In this document: positions 49,259 through 64,000 of the stretch, piece by piece
How positions within the stretch are numbered: the first letter of the stretch is position 1
How the letters are laid out: every line of letters begins with the position of its first letter
Virus record (IMG/VR): IMGVR_UViG_3300005976_000005
Span: 85,282 to 149,281 of that record
Strand: one strand, 5' to 3'
Source of the DNA: a virus
Length of the DNA stretch: 64,000 nt
Notes under the pieces: generated by a model
What the model saw: the letters and a program-made list of their open reading frames with translations, nothing else
Databases searched by the model: none
What the model was told of the DNA's origin: nothing
Program-made: the position numbers and the translations under genes

Positions 49259-50941
49259 TCATCTTTGTAAGTATTTATACTTTAATTGTCCCGAATTATA
49301 TATTCTATAAATTTTTCTTTCTGTCATAATCTCACGTTCTGACATATTTTCATCAAATCCATCTTCTATAAGTTTATCTTTACGATATTTAAACCTATTT
49401 TCTTTAATGTTATTTATATAAAAATAATTGGGCTTACTTATAGAATCTAAATCAAATCCCAATTTATCATAAAGGGTTTGCCCGTTATTCATTGTCCAAC
49501 TCCTATCGGCATAACTTATAACATCTTTAGGACAATAATTTCCGATGAAATATTTAAATAATTTACTAGCCCCACCAACAACATTAGTATTTATCTTATT
49601 ACAAAATCTTAACAATTCAAACGAACCCTCTTTATTTTTATTACCTAAACATTTTCTTAATTTACCAAATGTCATTAATGAGACTAATTCATCTTGGTAG
49701 TAAAGTCCAAATCTAATCTTTGACATACAGTTACCTTGAATATGGTTTTGTTCGAGAAATTCCTTCGAATCCTTGTAAGAGACTTCTTTAATTTCGGTTT
49801 TTCTAGCATAAACCTTTTTGGATTTACCAAGCAAATTTAAAATCCTAGATTTTACAACTTCTTGTTTGTAAATCCAATCATCTTCATAAATATGGACTAA
49901 ATGTATTCCGATCTCTTCGCATTGTTCGGTTTTATTTAAGTGATAATTTTTATCTTTATATAATTCCGAATGCCAATAAAGGCCATTGAACTCAAATGCT
50001 AATTTCAAATCTGGCAAATAAATGTCTAACTCATATGGGGTTATTATGTTTCTAACGTTTTCTTTAATGTTGTTTGAATAATTTTCTTTAACAAAATTTA
50101 TCATTTCTTTTTCTAAATGAGAAATTCCCATACATTTACATTTTTTACAACCATTTTTACCATTCATATGATTGTCTGGTCTTTGATAAAATATTTCATT
50201 ATGTTCTTTACATTTAATAGGAACACCTATTTGAACATTTTCTATTTCTTTTATTAAAGAATAATCAAAAGTATCGCCATGTATCTTAACACTTTTTTCA
50301 ATAAAATTTTCAACAGATATGCGATGGTTTAATCCATTTTCTTTATTAGCACAAAATTTACAACCATGGCCTCTATAATGTAAAATTGCCCTTTGTTTAA
50401 AAATTCCATGTAACGGACAAATTATATCTATCATAGATTGGCCGTTATTTATATTATTTACTAGAGAATAGTCGTACTTATCTCCATGAATATTATTAAA
50501 AACTTTCAAATAATCTTCTAAACTTTTCTTATAGTTTACACAACACTTGGGACAACCTTTTCCATTTTTTCTTAGATGTACTGTTGGTCTTTGTTCAAAT
50601 TTTCCATGTATAGGACATATTATTGTAACATTGTCATAATTGTTTTTACAATTTACTAAAGAATAATCGTACTTATTTCCATAAATTTTTATAGCTTCTT
50701 TTATAAATTTGGTTGTATTTAATCTTTTATAATTGTTTCTGTTTTCATTAGCACAAGATGGGCATCCAGATTTCTGTTTACCTATATGATATTGAGGTTG
50801 TTGCCAAAAATATCCATGTTTTGGGCATTTTATACAAACTTTAGTTTCACAATTAATATATTTTACTTTAGAATAATCGTACTTATCTCCATGAACTTTT
50901 TTTGACTTTTGTATAAAAATTGAATCGTTTAATTTTTTCAA
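49259..50941 (-). CDS. Free-standing homing endonuclease (zinc-ribbon repeats + Vsr-like core)
   Basis: Start taken at TTG 50941 (AAGGAGATTATA upstream), giving LKKLNDSIFIQKSKKVHGDK; a longer ATG frame from 51019 lacks a ribosome site. Five KYDYSxV...CPxHGxFxQxPxxH...C..C units come first. Then comes the Vsr/EDxHD-type nuclease: LPDLKLAFEFNGLYWHSELY, NYHLNKTEQCEEIGIHLVHI, YEDDW. The last ~190 residues (FLEQNHIQGNCMSKIRFGLY, VVGGASKLFKYFIGNY, ISYADRSWTMNNGQTLYDKL) look GNAT-like and are shared by all the large endonucleases here. It splits the sheath from the tube gene and has its own consensus promoter. Confidence 0.85.
   Translation of the reverse strand: MKKLNDSIFIQKSKKVHGDKYDYSKVKYINCETKVCIKCPKHGYFWQQPQYHIGKQKSGCPSCANENRNNYKRLNTTKFIKEAIKIYGNKYDYSLVNCKNNYDNVTIICPIHGKFEQRPTVHLRKNGKGCPKCCVNYKKSLEDYLKVFNNIHGDKYDYSLVNNINNGQSMIDIICPLHGIFKQRAILHYRGHGCKFCANKENGLNHRISVENFIEKSVKIHGDTFDYSLIKEIENVQIGVPIKCKEHNEIFYQRPDNHMNGKNGCKKCKCMGISHLEKEMINFVKENYSNNIKENVRNIITPYELDIYLPDLKLAFEFNGLYWHSELYKDKNYHLNKTEQCEEIGIHLVHIYEDDWIYKQEVVKSRILNLLGKSKKVYARKTEIKEVSYKDSKEFLEQNHIQGNCMSKIRFGLYYQDELVSLMTFGKLRKCLGNKNKEGSFELLRFCNKINTNVVGGASKLFKYFIGNYCPKDVISYADRSWTMNNGQTLYDKLGFDLDSISKPNYFYINNIKENRFKYRKDKLIEDGFDENMSEREIMTERKIYRIYNSGQLKYKYLQR
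49272..49279 (-). promoter_or_regulatory. TATAAATA late-type box
   Basis: Exact box on the minus strand near the 3' end of the endonuclease gene, 99 bp upstream of the gene at 49173. It could restore late transcription of the tube genes downstream of the insertion. Confidence 0.4.
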
Positions 50942-51033
50942 TATAATCTCCTTGATAGATTTAATAAAAAAGTGGTAATCCTTACTAATCAAGGTTTCAG
51001 GAAATGGTTTGCAACCCACTGTCCCACTTTTAT

Positions 51034-51062
51034 ATTATAACATATTTATTAACATTTGTCAA
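51034..51062 (-). promoter_or_regulatory. Perfect consensus sigma-70 promoter (endonuclease gene)
   Basis: TTGACA (51062-51057), exactly 17 bp, TATAAT (51039-51034) on the minus strand. The -35 box begins at the stop codon of the sheath gene. It would drive the homing endonuclease gene early, with host polymerase, independent of late transcription. Confidence 0.9.
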
Positions 51063-53198: not shown

Positions 53199-55382
53199 CT
53201 ACAAATCTCCATCAAAAATAACTGAAGGCATCCATCTCGGATCAGCTTCACTATCTTTCTCTTCCCTCATGTCAGGGATATCATCTTCCCATTCACCAAC
53301 ACGAATATTATACTCGTCTTCAATTGACTTGGAATCATAGGTCCTTCCCTCAAAATCATCCGTTATGATAAAGTAAAGAGCCCAAAGTAAAGAAGTAACA
53401 CAATTATGAACAACAATTCCATCACATACAAAACTTTCATCCTCATCAACACTAATATTATATACTGTTCCTTTAAAATGACTTTTTTTGATTTGTTTTA
53501 TATTCTTTGATTTTGATATTTTATGACTAACTTCAAAATTTGAAATTTCATTTATACTTTTACTATTACAATTTCCGTTGTAATCATCATAAATTGTAAC
53601 GTGATATTGATCCTTTTCATTTATTTTTTTCTTGTGAACGTGTTGGATGTTTGCTTTTTTGCCTATTGAAATTGCTATATCTCTCATATCTAAAGCTAGC
53701 TTTTTACTAATAGTAGCCCCAACAAAACATTTAGAATGTTTACTTCTTTCACAAACATAACCGTCACCTTTCAACCAATATTCTAATACATATTTTAAAT
53801 CGTAACCTAATTTAAACGCATAAAAAGGTAATACTTTATTTCTTGAGTCGTCATAGCAATAACTCATAAGATAATGTAATAATTTGTTTGCAAACTGAAT
53901 TGTACAACCATTATTGTCTTTTTCAAATCTTAATGAAGTAGAAATTCCTAAAGAATTCAAATATTCTTTCATTTCCGTAATCAAGTCAGTGTGTTTTTTA
54001 TCAAAAGCAATTGTCATTCTATAATGATATTTTTTACCATCTTTATAAGCGTGGCCATTTGCTAAAAATAAACCCAAAAACTTAGCAAAGTTATCATCCA
54101 TTTTTATATCAATTTTCTTATTATTTCCCTTACTTTCAACATAGTCTTCATACAAATATTTTTCATCTTCATTATCTTTCAGGGGCATTTTTACACTAAT
54201 ACACGATTGTTCATTCCAATCTCTAGCGAAGACCCAATCTCTATCCGATGTATAAATTGGATGATTATAACTACAAGACAAATTCAATTGACCTTCGAAT
54301 TTTATATCGTACCAATCACCATCAAATTCTTTTTCAATTAAATTTGTTACTTTTCTCCATCTTCCTTTGTGAGTCAAAACTTCGTCACCGATTACTACAT
54401 CTACGATTGGTATATAACCTCTTTTAGTTTTGACTAAAGCATCTTTCTTAAAACAGTCATCATGGTCATGTCTTCCAGCAGCAAATACATTCGGTCTAAC
54501 TTCCTCATATCTACTAAGCTCGTAAAGCGTCTTTTCATCGCATATAGAAAGTCTATCCTTTTCAAGATACTCCTTCAATAACATGTTAGCTTTTAGCTTT
54601 GTCTTCTTTGTGCTTCTTATTCCAAGTCCCTTAGGATCAGCATTAATCAAATTCTCATATTCAAACTCATGCCAAACTGAATCAGCAACAGTCTGTCCAA
54701 TATCATTATTTTCAACCATCATATGAGCATTATTGTAATACTTTGCTACAGAGACACATACTTGAGCGAAGTCATGTGGTCTTATCAAGTTGTTTCTATA
54801 AATTGCCACCTGTTCAACATCAAATTCATTCTTTATACGAAGAACCTGAATAACAGAATAATCCTTTCCGGTTCCTTTCGCAGTATCTACACCAAGCACA
54901 TATTCACCACCAGGCACAGGCTGCTTAAATATAGAAAGAAGTCCTTCCCACTTTGTAGCAACTGGGTCCTTGAAATGTATTCTCTCAAGCACATCGGAGT
55001 CAATAAGAGTTGACTGACTTCCAAGAAACTTACAATTCTTACTAACAATATCATTTGTATAATAAGAATTATCGGAAGATTCTACTTCAAGAAGAGTATA
55101 AACTTTTTCTTTCTTTTTGTTTAATTCAACCTTAACTATTTCTTTTAATCCATCTTTTGTTTCTAAAACATCTCCTTCAAGAAGATACTTGGCAATTTCT
55201 TCGTTCCCGTTTATAATAAATGTATGGTCAGTGGAAACTTCAATTACATTACCATCTTCCAAAGTAAATTTAAGAATTTGAACTTCTTCTTCAATTTCAC
55301 CAACCCCAGCAAAAGGTTTAAATCCTTCTGGTGTTTCAACTTCATAACTATTCAATAATTTCGTGTTTGTTTTTAAACTCAT
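53199..55382 (-). CDS. 17: Large terminase gp17, fragment 3 (intein-3 C-half, nuclease domain, intein 4)
   Basis: Residues 1-116 are the C-half of split intein 3, ending SKN|C. Residues 117-309 are terminase: CKFLGSQSTLID, YVLGVDTAKGTGKDYSVIQV (first nuclease Asp), MMVENNDIGQTVADSVWHEF (Glu), and GRHDHDD. Residues 310-660 are intein 4. Residues 661-727 (CVTSLLWALYFIITDD...) finish the terminase. D, E and HDD correspond to the RuvC-like nuclease residues of T4 gp17. ATG 55382 follows a modest GGAAG and overlaps the upstream endonuclease gene. It needs trans-splicing to the fragment at 58567-60891 to give a whole motor. Confidence 0.92.
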   Translation of the reverse strand: MSLKTNTKLLNSYEVETPEGFKPFAGVGEIEEEVQILKFTLEDGNVIEVSTDHTFIINGNEEIAKYLLEGDVLETKDGLKEIVKVELNKKKEKVYTLLEVESSDNSYYTNDIVSKNCKFLGSQSTLIDSDVLERIHFKDPVATKWEGLLSIFKQPVPGGEYVLGVDTAKGTGKDYSVIQVLRIKNEFDVEQVAIYRNNLIRPHDFAQVCVSVAKYYNNAHMMVENNDIGQTVADSVWHEFEYENLINADPKGLGIRSTKKTKLKANMLLKEYLEKDRLSICDEKTLYELSRYEEVRPNVFAAGRHDHDDCFKKDALVKTKRGYIPIVDVVIGDEVLTHKGRWRKVTNLIEKEFDGDWYDIKFEGQLNLSCSYNHPIYTSDRDWVFARDWNEQSCISVKMPLKDNEDEKYLYEDYVESKGNNKKIDIKMDDNFAKFLGLFLANGHAYKDGKKYHYRMTIAFDKKHTDLITEMKEYLNSLGISTSLRFEKDNNGCTIQFANKLLHYLMSYCYDDSRNKVLPFYAFKLGYDLKYVLEYWLKGDGYVCERSKHSKCFVGATISKKLALDMRDIAISIGKKANIQHVHKKKINEKDQYHVTIYDDYNGNCNSKSINEISNFEVSHKISKSKNIKQIKKSHFKGTVYNISVDEDESFVCDGIVVHNCVTSLLWALYFIITDDFEGRTYDSKSIEDEYNIRVGEWEDDIPDMREEKDSEADPRWMPSVIFDGDL
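53403..54455 (-). other. Intein 4 (351 aa, contiguous, LAGLIDADG) in gp17 nuclease site
   Basis: It starts with Cys in HDHDD|CFKKDALVKT and ends VVHN|CVTSLL, so both splice junctions are canonical (Cys1, His-Asn, Cys+1). Block B is LNLSCSYNHPIYTSD. The endonuclease motifs are FLGLFLANGHAY and LEYWLKGDGYV. The first has Asn where the catalytic acid usually is, so cutting is doubtful. It is inserted directly after the catalytic Asp-Asp pair. Confidence 0.9.
55035..55382 (-). other. Split intein 3, C-terminal half (116 aa)
   Basis: It begins at the ATG MSLKTNTKLLNSYEVETPEG. Block B is VIEVSTDHTFIINGN. It ends VYTLLEVESSDNSYYTNDIV then SKN|C+1. The penultimate His of most inteins is Lys here. 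Its partner is the 30-residue N-half at 58570-58659. Confidence 0.88.
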
Positions 55383-55411
55383 ATTTTATACTTCCACTAT
55401 CATATATTCTA
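55331..55411. repeat. 81-bp exact repeat, copy 1
   Basis: Identical to 56982-57062 (offset 1651). Read on the minus strand it encodes the last ~20 codons of an endonuclease gene (RIYDSGSIKYEFKNKHEIIE) and, in another frame, the first codons of the intein-3 C-half (MSLKTNTKLLNSYEVET). Confidence 0.95.
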
Positions 55412-56841
55412 TAAATATTTCTTTCTAACATAATCTGATGTTCTGATTTATTAACATCGAAACCCTGTTCAACTAAAACATTTTTACGATATTTAAATCT
55501 ATTTTCTCTAATTCCTTTATTCACATAATAGTAATTTGGTTGTGTGATACAATGTAATTTAAAACCTAAATTATCATATAAAGTTTTACCATTATTCATT
55601 GTCCAACTTCTGTCAGCATAACTAATAATAGAACTAAACGTATAATTATTTATAAAATACTTAAACAACTTATTAGCACCACCAACAACAGAAGTATTTA
55701 TCTTGTTACAAAACCTTAACAATTCATATAAACCTTCTTTTGATTGTTGTCCTAAACATTTTCTTAATTTACCAAAAGTCATTAAAGAAACTAATTCGTT
55801 TTCATAATAAAGTCCCAATCTAATTTTAGATATACAATTACCTTGAATATGATTTTTTTCGAGAAATTCTCTACTTTCTTTATATGAGACTTCTTTTATT
55901 TCAGTCTTTCTTGCAAAAATCTTTTTAGATTTACCAAGTAAATTAAGTATCCTAGACTTAACAATATCTTGTTTATATGTCCAGTCGTCTTCATATATGT
56001 GTATTAAATGGATTTCTTTATCATTCAACTCACATTTTAAAGTTTTATCTAAATGATAATTTTTATGAACAAATTTTTCAGAGTGCCAATATAATCCATT
56101 AAATTCAAAAGCCAATTTTAAATCTGGTAAATAAACATCTAATTCATATGGGTTAATAATATTTTTTACATTTACCAACACTTCACCAAAATAATTTTTT
56201 TCAATAAATTTTAAAAAATCCTTTTCAACATTAGAAAAATTAGCGTTACATTTTGGACAACCTCTATTATATCTCAAATGATTAGATGGTAATTGTTCAA
56301 ATTCACCATGTACTAAACAAACTATTTTGACATTTTTATGAGTTTTAATATATTCTACTTTTGAATAATCATACTTATCACCATGTACTTCTCTTGCTTT
56401 TTTAATAAAATATTCATTATTCATTGGTTGACATTGAGTCTTATTTAACATTCCACATTTTTTACAACCAAATTTTCTTGGAATATGTTTAGAAGGCGAT
56501 TGCCAAAATTCACCATGTTCTGGACAAATTATACAAACTTTAGTATGATAATTAATATATTCAACTTTACTATAGTCATATTTATCATTATGTACTTCTC
56601 TTGCTTTTTTAATAAATTCATTTTTATTCATTTTTAATTTTCTTTTTCTTTCTTCTTTTGCACATATTTTACAACCCTTTCCCCTCAAATGATTATTCGG
56701 ATTCTGTTTAAATTCTAAATCATGCTTTTTACATATTATTACTATTTTACTTTTATAATTCACATTATTATCCAACAAAGAATAATCATACTTTTCACCA
56801 TGAATCTTTTTTGCCTTTTTAATAAACAATTCTCTTTTCAT
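55348..56841 (-). CDS. Free-standing homing endonuclease inside split intein 3 (497 aa)
   Basis: Three zinc-ribbon units (KYDYSxVxY ... CPxHGEF(W/E)Q) follow MKRELFIKKAKKIHGEKYDY. The Vsr-like core follows: LPDLKLAFEFNGLYWHSEKF, YHLDKTLKCE, IHLIHIYEDDW. Then the shared GNAT-like end. The stop lies inside the intein-3 C-half gene, so the endonuclease has fused itself to the split point. TTTAAGGAGTTTATAA precedes ATG. This is the arrangement described for fractured phage genes with split inteins. Confidence 0.9.
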   Translation of the reverse strand: MKRELFIKKAKKIHGEKYDYSLLDNNVNYKSKIVIICKKHDLEFKQNPNNHLRGKGCKICAKEERKRKLKMNKNEFIKKAREVHNDKYDYSKVEYINYHTKVCIICPEHGEFWQSPSKHIPRKFGCKKCGMLNKTQCQPMNNEYFIKKAREVHGDKYDYSKVEYIKTHKNVKIVCLVHGEFEQLPSNHLRYNRGCPKCNANFSNVEKDFLKFIEKNYFGEVLVNVKNIINPYELDVYLPDLKLAFEFNGLYWHSEKFVHKNYHLDKTLKCELNDKEIHLIHIYEDDWTYKQDIVKSRILNLLGKSKKIFARKTEIKEVSYKESREFLEKNHIQGNCISKIRLGLYYENELVSLMTFGKLRKCLGQQSKEGLYELLRFCNKINTSVVGGANKLFKYFINNYTFSSIISYADRSWTMNNGKTLYDNLGFKLHCITQPNYYYVNKGIRENRFKYRKNVLVEQGFDVNKSEHQIMLERNIYRIYDSGSIKYEFKNKHEIIE

Positions 56842-56888
56842 TTATAAACTCCTTAAAAAACAAATCTTTAATTGTTCCTTTTGTATAT

Positions 56889-56918
56889 ATTATAATTTTG
56901 TAAATAAAAAAAAGTCAA
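56889..56918 (-). promoter_or_regulatory. Sigma-70-like promoter of the inner endonuclease gene
   Basis: On the minus strand TTGACT (56918-56913), 18 bp, TATAAT (56894-56889), 48 bp before ATG 56841. The spacer includes a run of Ts. Confidence 0.7.
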
Positions 56919-56981
56919 CTTTAACAAATTATTTACTTTTAATATCTCTAAAGTAAATTTTAAAATTTAAACTTCTTCCTA

Positions 56982-57062
56982 GTGTTTCAACTTCATAACT
57001 ATTCAATAATTTCGTGTTTGTTTTTAAACTCATATTTTATACTTCCACTATCATATATTCTA
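56982..57062. repeat. 81-bp exact repeat, copy 2
   Basis: Copy of 55331-55411. Here the intein-3 C-half start (ATG 57032, MSLKTNTKLLNSYEVET) is intact for about 17 codons and then runs into unrelated sequence, so it is a dead stub carried along with the endonuclease gene. Confidence 0.95.
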
Positions 57063-58477
57063 AATAAACCTCTTTTTAACATTATTTCATGTTCTGATTT
57101 ATTAACATCGAAACCCTGTTCAACTAAAACATTTTTACGATATTTGAATCTTCCTTCACGTCTCCTATTAACAATATAATAATAATTTGATTTTGAAATA
57201 TGATATAACTTAAAACCAATCTTATCATACAATGTATTACCATTATTCATTGTCCAACTTCTGTCAGCATAACTTATAACTTCTTTTGGAGTAAACTCTC
57301 GAAGAAAATGTTTAAACAATTTTTGAGCACCACCAACAACCGTAGTGTTTAGCTTATTACAAAATCTAATTAGTTCGAACAATCCTTTTCCACTTTTATT
57401 ACCCAAACATTTTCTTAATTTACCAAAAGTCATTAAAGACACTAATTCATTATCATAATAAAGTCCCAATCTAATCTTAGATACACAATTTCCCTGTATG
57501 TGATTTTTTTCGAGAAATTCTTTTGAATCTTTATATGAGACTTCTTTTATTTCAGTCTTTCTTGCAAAAATCTTTTTAGATTTACCAAGTAAATTAAGTA
57601 TTCTTGATTTAACTATATCTTGTTTAAAAACCCAATCGTCTTCGTAAATATGTACTAAGTGAATTCCTTTTTCTTCACATTTATTAGTTTTATCTAAATG
57701 ATAATTTTTATCTTTATATTTTTCATTATGCCATTCAATTCCATTAAATTCGAATGCAATTTTTAAATCAGGTAAATAAATATCTAATTCTTTACCTTTT
57801 AAAATATTTCTATCATTTAATAATATTAAGCCTGTGTAATTTATTTTAATAAAATCTTTCAATTCATTCTCTAATTTAGAAATTCCATCAAAACCAAAAG
57901 GATTACATATTAAACAAATGTTTTCTTTATTTCTATATCTATCATATAAAATTTGAGAATCTAATTCAAAAAATTGTTTACATACTTCACAATAATATCT
58001 AACTTCAGATTTATTTAAATATTCAACTAAACTAATTTTTTGACCCAATTCATTTATTATATTATTAATATTTTGTATTGCTTTAGCTTTATTTCTTATT
58101 TTAGCTTTATTAATTGATTTAGAAATTTTACCAGCAGAATTTACTCCATATTTTTTTAAACAAGTCTTTTTTCTCTTTTCATTTTCTTTATCAACATCTC
58201 TCGTTTTAAAAGATTCAATAATTTTATTTCTAACATATTCAGACTTTTGTTGATGCTTTAAACAACAAAATTTAGCATATCCTTTATAATAACCATAAAA
58301 CTTAGTTTCTTTTCCACAATGTAAACATCTTCCTTCATCTTCTTTTCTAATACATTTATCATAATATTCTTTCATATTCATATTATGATTTGGTTTAAGA
58401 TGATATCTACTGAAACTATCAATTGTTAAATTGGTCTGAGTATTACAAATCTTACAAAATATTCTTTCTTTTTCCAT
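56999..58477 (-). CDS. Second homing endonuclease inside split intein 3 (492 aa, different N-terminus)
   Basis: The N-terminus is unlike the others: FCKICNTQTNLTIDSFSRYH, RCLHCGKETKFYGYYKGYAK then FCCLKHQQKSEY (zinc fingers), KKTCLKKYGVNSAGKISKSI (NUMOD-like), YYCEVCKQFFELDSQILYDR. The nuclease core is the same Vsr-like type: LPDLKIAFEFNGIEWHNEKY, YHLDKTNKCEEKGIHLVHIY, EDDW, followed by the shared GNAT-like region. ATAAGGAGTCCAAA precedes ATG 58477. It follows a structured RNA-like segment. Confidence 0.87.
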   Translation of the reverse strand: MEKERIFCKICNTQTNLTIDSFSRYHLKPNHNMNMKEYYDKCIRKEDEGRCLHCGKETKFYGYYKGYAKFCCLKHQQKSEYVRNKIIESFKTRDVDKENEKRKKTCLKKYGVNSAGKISKSINKAKIRNKAKAIQNINNIINELGQKISLVEYLNKSEVRYYCEVCKQFFELDSQILYDRYRNKENICLICNPFGFDGISKLENELKDFIKINYTGLILLNDRNILKGKELDIYLPDLKIAFEFNGIEWHNEKYKDKNYHLDKTNKCEEKGIHLVHIYEDDWVFKQDIVKSRILNLLGKSKKIFARKTEIKEVSYKDSKEFLEKNHIQGNCVSKIRLGLYYDNELVSLMTFGKLRKCLGNKSGKGLFELIRFCNKLNTTVVGGAQKLFKHFLREFTPKEVISYADRSWTMNNGNTLYDKIGFKLYHISKSNYYYIVNRRREGRFKYRKNVLVEQGFDVNKSEHEIMLKRGLFRIYDSGSIKYEFKNKHEIIE

Positions 58478-58501
58478 TTTGGACTCCTTATAAATAAATT
58501 T

Positions 58502-58564
58502 TAGAGGGACAGACAGGCCAATTGGACTCGCCTGTTTGCAGAATTGCCGTTCTGCTTACCTCTA
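58502..58564 (-). other. Predicted three-way-junction RNA structure
   Basis: Minus strand, directly after the stop of terminase fragment 2. The outer stem UAGAGG/CCUCUA (6 bp) encloses two perfect 6-bp hairpins: GCAGAA-loop-UUCUGC, and ACAGGC-loop-GCCUGU whose 11-nt loop contains most of a palindromic CCAATTGG. No U-run follows. It matches no ribozyme or riboswitch core that I know. Confidence 0.55.
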
Positions 58565-58566
58565 TA

Positions 58567-60891
58567 TTATTTATCTTTAAATAAATCTCCTATTTTCAAT
58601 TTTTTTATCAAATTTGTCTCTCTATCTCTAATATTTATAATAGTTTCTGATTTTACACAAGAAAATTCTTGGGCAAATCTAATAGGTCCAATATCAGCAA
58701 TCATCTCTTCCTTCCACTCTTCATCTCTACCAGGAACTTCCCACCAACCAACACGAATAGGAAAGAAGTTGTTTGACTTTTCCTTTCTTACTGCCTTTGA
58801 CCAGAACTCATAAAAGTGGTTCAAACCTTTGGGAGTTTGATGTCCGACATATCCGTTGTATAAAACTGAATGACACCATTTATCATCTTCAATATGATTC
58901 AATGAAAAATCAAAAACTTCATTCTCAGATTCTTCAATAGAATTTATTTTAAACCATTTTAAATCACTTCTAACATTATTTTCAATAAAAATTTTCAATT
59001 TATCATTTTCAGAATCAAGTATTTCTTTTTTTCTTTTCAATAAATATTTTCTCGAAAAAACCTTTTTACCAACTCCATTATTAAACAAATTCATTTTACG
59101 AACTTCATTAGAATAATTTTCTTTAATAATTTCTCTCGAAAATGGAATTATATCATGACTATTTCTAGTTCCTTTAAAATCAAGAAATTTTAAATTATTT
59201 TGTTTTCTTTCAAAATTAAATCCAACTAAATTATAAAATTTTAATGAATTTTCTTTATCCATCAATAATCTATAATTTTTAGTTATTTTTTTAACTTTTT
59301 TAGTTGGTTTTGTATCAATTTCTAAATAATCAGTAATAATTCCTAAATTTAATAATAACATTTTAATTTGTAATATCATTTTTTTTGAATTCATAGAAAT
59401 TCCAACAATACCATTATCTTTTCTTGAGTAACCATCTCCATCAAAAATTCCAGATAACATTGCTAAAATGTTTTTCTTACTCATCGAAAGAAGTTTATTT
59501 GGAATATATTTTTCTTCAGCCTTTAATTTTAAATTAAACCCAATATGCTCTAAAAATAAAACTAAGTCCTTACACATAATATTATAATGAAACTTACCAT
59601 CAAAATAATAACTTAAACCCAAATCATCTAAATATTTCTTTACATTATCTCCACATGTAATAGTTACAGAACCCCCAACAAATATATCATTCTCATTATA
59701 TTTTTTATAGACATTACCTTTCGCCAAAAATAAACCCAAAAAATAAGCCAATTTCTCATTTATTTTTTTACATTCGAAAATATTTTTAAATCTATTTGAT
59801 TTTTCTGAATTAAAACCCACAAAATCATCATTACCCCAAACATTCATACCATATTTAATAGAAATAAAATCTCCAACATCTAAATCAGATGATTTATACC
59901 AACCATATTTTCCATTTTTACATGCCCACAATTTATGATTTTTAGAGCATTCTAATTTTCCAAAAGTTGTTTTTAAAATATTAGTCTTAACACGTCCACT
60001 ATTATACATAGTAATACCTTTTCTAAGACCACCCATACCAACAACTTTATACTCTGGAACATCATATGATTCTTCTCTATTTTCATCAATAAAGTTTTCA
60101 ACAGTTCTAATACCTTTATCAGTAAACACAAAAGTATCTTTAGTAACGCAAGAAATCATTATTATCTTACAAGTTTTACCACTTGATATAACAGGATAAG
60201 TTGATGTGATGAATTCTTCTGCTACGTGTGCTGGTACCTTTGCGAACTCATCAAGGAAAAGAAGGTTGACCATCAATGATGTAAGAGCTTCAGCAGATGT
60301 TGCTGATGCTATTATTCTTGAACCATTTTCAAAAACAACAGACTTCTTATTCCATCCATCATCTGTCAATCCCTGTTGTAACCAAAGAGGTAGCATTCCA
60401 ATAGCCATTTTAATTCTCTTCAAGATATCAATTGCGGCATCTTGTTTATGAGCAACAATAGCTACCGTTTTGTCTTTATTAAACAATGCGTACCAAAGAA
60501 GGAATATTGTTGAAATAGTCGTATTATGTGAAAGTATTCCGTTTGTAAATAATGTATGATTCTTTGAATTAACTGTCAAATCAAACATTTCTTCTGGTTC
60601 AACTCTTAACTTTTCAACAGATATAATTTTTTGTAAACCAGACTTCGTAATAACTTTATCATCTTTAGTTAAATCTTTTACAAATTTTTCTTTCATCCCT
60701 TCAACCATTACAATATGATCGTCTGCACATTTAAGACTATATGATAATGTCTTTAGCTCCCAAACATCATATTTAACAGTTTTATGTAAATGAGTTATAT
60801 CTTTCCAACCATCTTCAGTTTCAATTTCCCATTCATCTAATTCAAAAGATTCATTAAATTTTTCATCTGTAGGTTCTATCTGTTTAATCAT
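58567..60891 (-). CDS. 17: Large terminase gp17, fragment 2 (intein-1 C-half, ATPase, intein 2, intein-3 N-half)
   Basis: Residues 1-123 are the C-half of split intein 1 (ends SHN|T). Residues 124-247 are ATPase: TTISTIFLLWYALF continues the Walker A, LMVNLLFLDEFAKVPAHVAE is Walker B, KTCKIIMIS the coupling strand. Residues 248-685 are intein 2. Residues 686-744 are terminase TPKGLNHFYEFW (T4 TTPNGLNHFYDIW) to IRFAQEFS. Residues 745-774 are the N-half of split intein 3. GGAG before ATG 60891. It thus needs trans-splicing at both ends. Confidence 0.93.
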   Translation of the reverse strand: MIKQIEPTDEKFNESFELDEWEIETEDGWKDITHLHKTVKYDVWELKTLSYSLKCADDHIVMVEGMKEKFVKDLTKDDKVITKSGLQKIISVEKLRVEPEEMFDLTVNSKNHTLFTNGILSHNTTISTIFLLWYALFNKDKTVAIVAHKQDAAIDILKRIKMAIGMLPLWLQQGLTDDGWNKKSVVFENGSRIIASATSAEALTSLMVNLLFLDEFAKVPAHVAEEFITSTYPVISSGKTCKIIMISCVTKDTFVFTDKGIRTVENFIDENREESYDVPEYKVVGMGGLRKGITMYNSGRVKTNILKTTFGKLECSKNHKLWACKNGKYGWYKSSDLDVGDFISIKYGMNVWGNDDFVGFNSEKSNRFKNIFECKKINEKLAYFLGLFLAKGNVYKKYNENDIFVGGSVTITCGDNVKKYLDDLGLSYYFDGKFHYNIMCKDLVLFLEHIGFNLKLKAEEKYIPNKLLSMSKKNILAMLSGIFDGDGYSRKDNGIVGISMNSKKMILQIKMLLLNLGIITDYLEIDTKPTKKVKKITKNYRLLMDKENSLKFYNLVGFNFERKQNNLKFLDFKGTRNSHDIIPFSREIIKENYSNEVRKMNLFNNGVGKKVFSRKYLLKRKKEILDSENDKLKIFIENNVRSDLKWFKINSIEESENEVFDFSLNHIEDDKWCHSVLYNGYVGHQTPKGLNHFYEFWSKAVRKEKSNNFFPIRVGWWEVPGRDEEWKEEMIADIGPIRFAQEFSCVKSETIINIRDRETNLIKKLKIGDLFKDK
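58570..58659 (-). other. Split intein 3, N-terminal half (30 aa)
   Basis: CVKSETIINIRDRETNLIKK then LKIGDLFKDK-stop, following AQEFS. This is intein block A only. The break falls about 30 residues in, as in the atypically split AceL-TerL-type inteins and unlike DnaE-type splits near residue 100. Confidence 0.88.
58837..60150 (-). other. Intein 2 (438 aa, contiguous, LAGLIDADG) in gp17 coupling motif
   Basis: Cys1 follows IIMIS; CVTKDTFVFTDKGIRTVENF is block A and KLECSKNHKLWACKNG block B. FLGLFLAKGNVY and LSGIFDGDGYS are the two LAGLIDADG motifs; the first has Lys in place of the catalytic acid. The end is VLYNGYVGHQ|TPKG: terminal Gln instead of Asn, and Thr+1, both seen in some inteins. 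Confidence 0.9.
60523..60891 (-). other. Split intein 1, C-terminal half (123 aa)
   Basis: It starts MIKQIEPTDEKFNESFELDE. Block B is LKCADDHIVMV. The end FDLTVNSKNHTLFTNGILSH-N|T is canonical block F/G with His-Asn and Thr+1. Its partner is the 33-residue N-half at 61147-61245. Confidence 0.9.
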
Positions 60892-60911
60892 TTAAAAACT
60901 CCAAACAGTCT

Positions 60912-61128
60912 TTTATTACTTTTTCAGGATTGTCTTTATAATCTTTTTTTCTTCAAATTTCTTTATCCATTTATCTTGTCTCTCTTGCCATCTTTTTAAA
61001 CCTTCTTCTTTACCATACTTTTTAATACAAATTTCTTTGCTAAATGTAGTCTGTCTTTCTTTAACTTTTTACGTAGATTCCTCTTCAGTAAATCCTTTCT
61101 TAATCCAATATTCAACCCAAAATGACAA
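60912..61128 (-). pseudogene. Homing endonuclease remnant between the halves of intein 1
   Basis: The frame reads WVEYWIKKGFTEEEST-stop-KVKERQTTFSKEI then YGKEEGLKRWQERQDKWIKK. After an A-run it continues one frame over as KDYKDNPEKVIKDCLEFL. Such Lys/Glu-rich WIKKGFxEEEA...KYGEEEGxxRWxxRQ segments are typical of N-terminal parts of phage endonucleases. It has one stop, one frameshift and no nuclease core. Confidence 0.6.
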
Positions 61129-61143
61129 AAAAATATAAAAAAA

Positions 61144-61500
61144 CTAAGATTTTTTTATCTTATCATAAAATTCACCAACAGATATTTCTTTAATTTCTCC
61201 AGTTTTTTTATTCCTAACCTTTATGTGATTGTTTTCACAAAAACATTTGCCACTTTGTCTGGCTATCTTAACGACACAATGCTTCTTACCACCCGGATTC
61301 TCTACGTAAGCTTTCAGAACCTTTTTCTGCCAGTCGTAAAGTGTTATCTTCTCTTTACCTCTATCAGGGTGAATTATGTAGAAATATTTCTCAGAAAAAT
61401 ATATGATATCTTGACTACATCTAATTAGTTCGTTTATCATATCTTGCGTGTAGTCTACCTTCTCTCCTGATCTTCTTAAGTTGGCATTACCTTGAAACAT
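61144..61500 (-). CDS. 17: Large terminase gp17, fragment 1 (N-terminus to Walker A + intein-1 N-half)
   Basis: ATG 61500 with AAGGATGATTGATT upstream. MFQGNANLRRSGEKVDYTQD, INELIRCSQDIIYFSEKYFY, LYDWQKKVLKAYVENPGGKK (the adenine-binding Q motif region) and CVVKIARQSGK, the first part of a Walker A as in T4 (RQLGKTT). The chain then enters the intein with CFCENNHIKVRNKKTGEIKE and stops 33 residues later. No ATPase is possible until this is joined to fragment 2. Confidence 0.93.
   Translation of the reverse strand: MFQGNANLRRSGEKVDYTQDMINELIRCSQDIIYFSEKYFYIIHPDRGKEKITLYDWQKKVLKAYVENPGGKKHCVVKIARQSGKCFCENNHIKVRNKKTGEIKEISVGEFYDKIKKS
61147..61245 (-). other. Split intein 1, N-terminal half (33 aa)
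   Basis: It begins at Cys directly after RQSGK and reads CFCENNHIKVRNKKTGEIKE then ISVGEFYDKIKKS-stop. Block A only, so an atypical early split, matching the 123-residue C-half at 60523-60891. Confidence 0.9.
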
Positions 61501-61502
61501 AA

Positions 61503-62018
61503 TCAATCATCCTTTCTATTTGGAATGTTTTCATTTTCTACTTCAAAATCTGCTTCTATAGCATTCATCTCACTTCTTTCACTTGCCTTGTTTATCATAT
61601 CAAGCAACTGCTCAGAACTCAGTGATATCTTGTTGTTCCCAATATCCTCAATATCTACTTGTCCTGTTTTAACATGAGCCTCAAATATGCTCTTGTTAAG
61701 TTCAAGAAGTGAGTTGTATAGTTTTCCGATTGACTCTATTAGTTTAGAGTAAACTTCTATCTTCCTATTGTCACATCCAATCTTTATATCCTGCTCGACC
61801 TTATATTGAACCGTCCTAGTTGACATAATCAACGTTCTCAATTCACTTCTTATAAAATCCTCGTCCTGGAAAACAGCAGGGTTCTTAGCTTGAGCTTTGA
61901 CAATCTCCTTTCTATTCTCTATTGTTTGAATATCATTCTTGACTAACTCAACCTCTTTGTCAAATTTTTCTTCTTCTTTTATGTCGAACGCGCTTGTTAA
62001 TCCTTCAAATCCTTCCAT
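61503..62018 (-). CDS. 16: Small terminase subunit gp16-like
   Basis: About 171 aa (T4 gp16 is 164), directly before gp17. The core is helical/coiled coil: TVQYKVEQDIKIGCDNRKIE then VYSKLIESIGKLYNSLLELN, with an acidic C-terminus (EADFEVENENIPNRKDD). In T4 gp16 forms a ring that recognises DNA and regulates gp17. ATG 62018 is chosen for its spacing to AAGGAG. Confidence 0.85.
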   Translation of the reverse strand: MEGFEGLTSAFDIKEEEKFDKEVELVKNDIQTIENRKEIVKAQAKNPAVFQDEDFIRSELRTLIMSTRTVQYKVEQDIKIGCDNRKIEVYSKLIESIGKLYNSLLELNKSIFEAHVKTGQVDIEDIGNNKISLSSEQLLDMINKASERSEMNAIEADFEVENENIPNRKDD

Positions 62019-63595: not shown

Positions 63596-64000
63596 TCACA
63601 TATTAAAAATAAATTTTAATTGTCCTGAATTATACAATCTATAAATATTTCTTTCTAACATAATCTGATGTTCTGACTTATCACAATCAAATCCTTGCTT
63701 AATCAAAACGTCCTTTCTATAATTGAATCTATTTTCTCTAATTCCTTTATTCACATAATAGTAATTTGGTTGTGTGATACAATGTAATTTAAAACCTAAA
63801 TTATCATATAAAGTTTTACCATTATTCATTGTCCAACTTCTATCAGCATAACTAATAATCTGTTCTGTATTATATTCATTTATAAAATACTTAAACAACT
63901 TATTAGCACCACCAACAACAGAAGTATTTATCTTGTTACAAAACCTTAACAATTCATATAAACCTTCTTTTGATTGTTGTCCTAAACATTTTCTTAATTT
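63596..64000 (-). CDS. Homing endonuclease, C-terminal part (runs off right edge)
   Basis: From the right edge it reads KLRKCLGQQSKEGLYELLRF, then VVGGANKLFKYFINEYNTEQ, ISYADRSWTMNNGKTLYDNL and NIYRLYNSGQLKFIFNM-stop. Stretches are identical at DNA level to the gene at 55348-56841 (for example around 63745-63840 versus 55530-55625), so this is a recent copy. It lies upstream of the gp15-16-17 block. The nuclease core lies outside the window. Confidence 0.9.
   Translation of the reverse strand, partial: KLRKCLGQQSKEGLYELLRFCNKINTSVVGGANKLFKYFINEYNTEQIISYADRSWTMNNGKTLYDNLGFKLHCITQPNYYYVNKGIRENRFNYRKDVLIKQGFDCDKSEHQIMLERNIYRLYNSGQLKFIFNM

Follow-up and report, generated by a model that had tools for sequence, protein, structure and literature searches.

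The end of a 149-kb virus record (IMGVR_UViG_3300005976_000005; the 64,000 nucleotides analysed here are referred to as the window) carries the TerL gene of a T4-like phage spread across three open reading frames (ORFs). Between the halves of its third intein, which is split, lie two tandem homing endonuclease genes, HE-A and HE-B, with a dead duplicate of the beginning of the intein C-half (IntC3) between them. We consider it probable that one non-homologous crossover joined two alleles, each carrying a single endonuclease, and that gene conversion later acted between the two genes.

A dead intein stub between two endonuclease genes

HE-A (56999-58477, minus strand, 492 amino acids) consists of an N-terminal domain of the DUF7487/HNH type (residues 1-132), a Hef-like nuclease and a Mom/GNAT-like domain; HE-B (55348-56841, minus strand, 497 amino acids) combines DUF723/DUF4379-type N-terminal repeats with a Hef-like nuclease and a Mom/GNAT-like C-domain. 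A preliminary description of this locus had drawn attention to an 81-bp exact repeat at the 3' ends of both genes. Sequence comparison shows the repeat to be real and maximal (55331-55411 equals 56982-57062, minus strand, and the match cannot be extended), but it is not a stand-alone unit: it forms the end of an imperfect homologous block of about 0.9 kb that contains the C-terminal domain common to HE-A and HE-B and the 5' end of the TerL split-intein C-half. Because the two copies lie in register inside two blocks of about 300 nucleotides (nt) with 85-86% identity, a chance origin of the match is ruled out.

The left copy encodes the final 20 residues of HE-B (...YDSGSIKYEFKNKHEIIE) and, in a second frame from the ATG at 55382, residues 1-17 of IntC3 (MSLKTNTKLLNSYEVET). 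The right copy, at the C-terminus of HE-A, encodes the same 17 residues from the ATG at 57033 and continues into LGRSLNFKIYFRDIKSK and a stop. As the preliminary description held, the IntC frame is whole on the left and destroyed on the right; the stub is nevertheless longer than the 17 codons it was credited with, since some 42 IntC codons or more must have gone into it, with homology reaching 56947. The whole relic (56947-57033, minus strand) comprises 17 codons, a 38-nt deletion and 32 nt at 88%, 28 of these 32 positions being identical to the live copy (56947-56978 and 55258-55289). The deletion shifts the frame and a CAA codon has become TAA, and the stub is therefore dead. No other lineage searched contains it.

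A non-homologous joint at the left edge of HE-B

Two scans for IntC and TerL returned about 85 related viral loci, which are given L numbers below. HE-B is orthologous to the sole endonuclease of one of them, L011 (80% identity). The window from the HE-B unit through TerL (56910-54456) is collinear with L011 910-3355 at 81%, and L011 is also collinear with window 59390-58555, which reaches IntN3, with no HE-A between. The 5' flank of the HE-B unit (56842-56910, minus strand) is homologous to that in L011 and begins with the same sequence. To the left of this border L011 has a remnant of the start of a 124-residue ORF (E 4e-13) that stands after the endonuclease in L020, and the window has the stub. 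A common HE-B border with different left flanks thus suggests that pre-existing alleles were joined at the left edge of HE-B. Another contig, L009, has its first position at window 56913 and begins at the same border; the cause might be variation at the joint within the population, or simply a break at a poly-T run.

HE-A itself is a resident-type N-domain fused to a Hef-type C-domain, the former being that of the single endonuclease in L013 and L020 (69% over 124-132 amino acids). This N-domain and the RNA-like element upstream of HE-A also belong to the lone endonuclease found here in L013, L015, L018 and L038. Within the C-domains, HE-A and HE-B contain identical runs of 24, 20 and 19 codons, the longest of which was reached in 0 of 5000 codon shuffles. 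In these tracts HE-B and its L011 ortholog differ at 11, 7 and 8 codons, synonymous sites included; identity between HE-A and HE-B therefore sits where the orthologs differ, also synonymously, as is typical of gene conversion. A conversion-like pattern is seen as well between HE-B and the fragment of a further Hef-like gene (HE-D, see below).

The intein-3 halves flank a slot for free-standing endonuclease genes, each ending inside the IntC gene. In the scheme that we favour, the parents would have been an IntN-HE-A-IntC and an IntN-(X)-HE-B-IntC allele. The present locus would owe its left part, as far as roughly IntC codon 42, to the first of these, and its right part, from about 68 nt upstream of HE-B, to the second. 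The crossover would have retained both endonucleases and left the IntC of the first allele as a stub, which then decayed, while gene conversion between the similar C-domains would later have rendered several tracts identical, including the 81 bp. The trigger would most likely have been a double-strand break made by one of the two nucleases.

According to the preliminary description, the second endonuclease had instead entered through recombination within the shared end. That proposal is not supported: homologous exchange there would swap HE-A for HE-B and not align both, and the joint is located past the stub, at the start of the HE-B 5' flank (~56910). Since the 81-bp identity is one of several conversion tracts, its exactness is no marker of an insertion event. 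The original observation thus stands, and its interpretation does so in part.

Alternative origins of the tandem

The tandem could also have arisen by unequal crossing over that duplicated one endonuclease-IntC unit, with replacement of the upstream N-domain and decay of IntC. This would account for the in-register match of the two genes over their entire C-terminal domain and into the start of IntC, with stretches at 100% identity; however, outside the identical tracts HE-A is the outgroup to HE-B and L011 (in the first 75 columns outside conversion tracts, 22 nucleotide mismatches separate HE-B from L011 and 53 separate it from HE-A), which argues against a recent tandem duplication. HE-A being further from HE-B than HE-B is from L011, the HE-A/HE-B split must predate that between the window and L011, and the stretches of identity lie dispersed, as conversion would leave them. 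We therefore regard duplication as unlikely. A more specific route, and a mechanism for the crossover of two alleles rather than a different structure, is homing of HE-B into an HE-A-IntC allele cut inside IntC, with invasion through IntC/TerL homology on one side and an end-joining event on the other. The right side is homologous and the left side non-homologous in L011 as well as in the window, the stub would end near the predicted cleavage site, and genetic exchange in phages is known to have nuclease genes as boundaries (PMC10448857). The direction, HE-B into HE-A or the reverse, cannot be read from the joint; we put homing forward tentatively, as a real possibility somewhat short of an even chance. 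Retention of the stub region for a function, either as a recombination target to lose or exchange HE-B or as a re-initiation site, would suit an exact tract of 81 nt that includes 17 nt downstream of the HE-A stop, but decay has affected the remainder of the stub, and the way in which the exact tract ends is that of the other conversion tracts, which leaves this explanation very improbable.

Less probable still is an assembly artefact across the endonuclease repeats. Such repeats do break or misjoin contigs, as is illustrated by L014 and by the contigs that stop in HE-D and L112; against this, the decayed stub leads uniquely into HE-B, and the assembled order is therefore the only linear path that contains HE-A, stub, HE-B and IntC. 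Moreover, two further IMG/VR records, 3300005965_000014 and 3300025364_000014 (the latter ends inside HE-B), carry the HE-A/stub/HE-B order, and all three records are 100% identical in their overlaps; these two may come from the same phage population as the window. L014 was considered as a third endonuclease allele and set aside as a chimera, given its capsid/neck-type upstream genes and an endonuclease that switches to HE-B sequence within the repeat.

Four points weigh against a crossover between two single-endonuclease alleles. When alleles with HE-A as their sole endonuclease were sought, just the tandem records, HE-B-type and other Hef relatives came up, and one predicted parent is therefore missing. 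About 34 nt at the joint show no clear match to either parent. A single phage population could account for all the tandem records, and assembly in this phage is demonstrably disturbed by the C-domain repeats, L014 being a likely chimera.

States of the intein-3 site among relatives

The comparison with relatives that had been suggested at the outset revealed loci with no, one and two endonucleases. TerL is contiguous across the intein-3 site, with no intein, in L017 and L019; the more distant L066-L069 carry a contiguous, unsplit intein there; and intein 3 is split without an intact endonuclease in L034, L035, L049, L051 and L092. A single endonuclease is of the HE-B type in L011, of the DUF7487/HNH type in L013, L015, L018, L038 and L041, and of the GIY-YIG or HNH_3 type in many distant loci. 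Two endonucleases with a stub occur only in the window and in the two IMG/VR records that repeat its order. The distance from extein to extein rises with the number of endonucleases, from 4 nt (empty) through about 400 (contiguous intein), 447-803 (endonuclease lost), about 1000-1500 (one GIY-YIG/HNH endonuclease) and 2049 (L011) to 3629 in the window, in agreement with the earlier idea that these genes push the halves apart. Other cargo is carried too: ORFs without an endonuclease match occupy the slot in L020 (7387-7761) and L040 (5547-7796), the latter locus having an endonuclease plus three other ORFs between the intein-3 halves. A megablast search against named phages gave no match, and no TerL-intein relative was found in GTDB genomes.

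Mapping the ten states onto a tree of the TerL exteins takes 14 changes. The window groups with L011, L013, L017, L015 and L019, and the arrangements among its neighbours are one Hef-like endonuclease, one HNH-type endonuclease and an empty site. What had been read as a step-by-step record of growth is borne out as a range of states, whereas a time order would have to be read into it, the state tree being unable to separate gain from loss.

Endonuclease genes tend to end inside IntC

That the endonuclease gene ends in the intein C-half proved to be widespread. Among ORFs of at least 60 codons that end near the IntC start, all (60/60 loci) overlap it, by 4-44 nt and in several unrelated endonuclease families. 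The overlap is a strong tendency and not a law, because many of the loci are near-duplicates and L020 and L040 have an intervening ORF. Hef homologues at other sites end around KYxY, without the KNKHEIIE tail; HE-A, HE-B and the L011 endonuclease carry an extra tail, KNKHEIIE or KNKHKINE, which is what the first IntC codons encode in a different frame. In the five split loci that lack an intact endonuclease, which are separate on the TerL tree, the last ~25-80 nt of an endonuclease are retained directly before or across the IntC start, and a tail kept after gene loss fits a role as leader of IntC. Strong Shine-Dalgarno matches precede IntC in some loci only, and for this reason we infer the leader role from position and tail retention, not from the motif; IntC would then be translated from inside the endonuclease gene. 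This might, tentatively, constitute a ratchet, in which the endonuclease may be replaced, decay or gain a partner but its tail cannot be cleanly removed, because translation of the essential gene piece that follows would start within its 3' end.

The split TerL and its inteins

TerL carries four inteins over 53199-61506, of which 1 and 3 are split and 2 and 4 are contiguous, with LAGLIDADG domains; its pieces are predicted to be rejoined by protein splicing. The N-terminus (61144-61506) was placed by a 61% match to that of L013, and its ORF continues in frame into an apparent short intein start. The middle piece (58567-60891, minus strand) comprises IntC1, the ATPase extein, LAGLIDADG intein 2, a further extein and IntN3, which is 30 residues long (CVKSETIINIRDRETNLIKKLKIGDLFKDK; 58570-58659, minus strand) and matched in L011, L013, L018 and L021. 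The C-terminal ORF (53199-55382) begins with the live IntC3 (55035-55382, minus strand, 116 amino acids, ending SKN before C), overlaps the HE-B ORF by 35 nt, and proceeds through the nuclease exteins and the complete LAGLIDADG intein 4 (53199-55034, minus strand) to the TerL C-terminus. IntC3 matches CatC (PDB 6dsl, an engineered consensus of the GOS-TerL and AceL-TerL inteins) with an E of 8e-7, and the predicted catalytic residues of intein 3 (Cys1, a TDH motif, Asn116 and Cys+1) are present. Judged by its sequence, intein 3, with its 30-residue IntN and 116-residue IntC, is an atypical split intein of the AceL-TerL/GOS-TerL type, a class whose known IntN measure 25-37 amino acids (PMC11766414).

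The gap of split intein 1 (60892-61143) holds a decayed endonuclease-like remnant. Its frame ends in CLEFLND and a stop, overlapping the ATG at 60891 of IntC1, and intact ORFs ending in CLEFLN(E/G/V) overlap in the same way in L034, L086 and L071. Here too the tail has outlasted the gene.

Hef-like genes and an upstream RNA-like element

The Hef-like genes of the window are not limited to the tandem pair; four were counted, namely HE-B, HE-A, a gene at 49259-51019 and HE-D from 63596 onward, within which (63596-64000) the virus record ends. L112, the end of an 85-kb contig from the same metagenome as L010, terminates in the same repeat as this fourth gene. HE-A and HE-B match the PHROG homing endonuclease families 559/3339 (E <= 1e-88), and HE-A is 52% identical to an annotated Hef-like protein of Tenacibaculum phage PTm1. 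The homing label for HE-A and HE-B follows from annotation and position. Both genes are constrained, with ratios of non-synonymous to synonymous substitution (dN/dS) of 0.13-0.30 (0.23-0.30 for HE-A), and the nuclease part has invariant E, D, E, H and H residues. Searches of PDB and Pfam with this part gave no match, and a PDB sequence search with HE-A as query gave a spurious match only.

A model of the C-terminal 303 residues of HE-B (55351-56259, minus strand; predicted local distance difference test, pLDDT, 90) matched the phage Mu protein Mom (8bv8) in Foldseek with an E of 4e-7, as well as GNAT acetyltransferases; at the sequence level the match lies in the second half of this region. 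A fold of this kind is predicted for HE-A too. A profile comparison with Mu Mom was collinear over 124 columns in that second half, below significance. Mom domains fused to nucleases of the restriction endonuclease (REase) fold are known from jumbo phages (PMC7824862), and Hef-like 'homing endonucleases' may, from these models, be fusions of a nuclease with a DNA-modifying partner domain.

An RNA-like element with a three-way junction lies between IntN3 and HE-A (58484-58571, minus strand), its structure deriving from covariation in 6 sequences (compensatory changes in 7/18 pairs of the TerL form). It stands upstream of the endonuclease in the window, L013, L015, L018 and L038. The window element scores 87.9 bits against a model built from that element itself, and Rfam gave no credible match. 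Elements of ~60-85 nt were also seen at a number of other places, immediately 5' of endonuclease genes that belong to several families, with matches at window 50963-51050 (minus strand), L013 11851-11936, L037 3725-3810, L117 244-329, L020 2334-2413 and L014 6351-6430. The TerL form matches the copies at other sites in the opposite orientation, and two matches have no endonuclease gene after them.

Discussion

The transition from a contiguous to a split intein, and the subsequent drift apart of its halves, are usually told without intermediates. Here one site is found, among relatives, empty, with a contiguous intein, split without an endonuclease, and with one (of several families) or two endonucleases, and the fossils at the joints (the IntC stub, the ORF remnant and the kept tails) reveal which ends recombined. 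The general overlap and the kept tails are the more interesting part of the locus: the former hints at a specific cause for the difficulty of repairing essential genes broken in this way, and a ratchet, if true, would both fix the broken gene and make the gap grow.

Hef-like homing endonucleases (PHROG 559/3339; Tenacibaculum phage PTm1 and Bacillus phage AR9) resemble HE-A over 58-71% of its length; in contrast to these, HE-A and HE-B have a tail read from IntC codons, and the N-domain of HE-A is that of a DUF7487/HNH endonuclease. The AceL-TerL/GOS-TerL/Cat split inteins (PMC11766414; 6dsl) likewise have a TerL host, a short IntN and a large IntC, whereas here an endonuclease tandem flanks the intein, whose splicing is predicted from sequence. 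In Aeromonas phage PX29 (gp17A/gp17B, GU396103) TerL is broken, with the N-intein annotated in 17A and a GIY-YIG endonuclease beside the C-intein in 17B; unlike the window, it has one endonuclease, annotated in the same ORF as the C-intein.

Closest in plan are the fractured genes, in which a phage gene is divided between two ORFs, each bearing the complementary half of an intein inserted at a single site, with a free-standing nuclease between them. The TerL locus shows both traits. Such genes were reportedly described by Dassa et al. 2009 (Nucleic Acids Res. 37:2560; cited in PMC10448857 and PMC3229294), the nuclease being said to belong to a Vsr/EDxHD-like family. The window differs in having two nuclease genes and a dead IntC stub, and in endonuclease 3' ends that overlap the IntC start. 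Fractured genes and AceL-TerL-type inteins are already known, while the tandem-plus-stub form is new.

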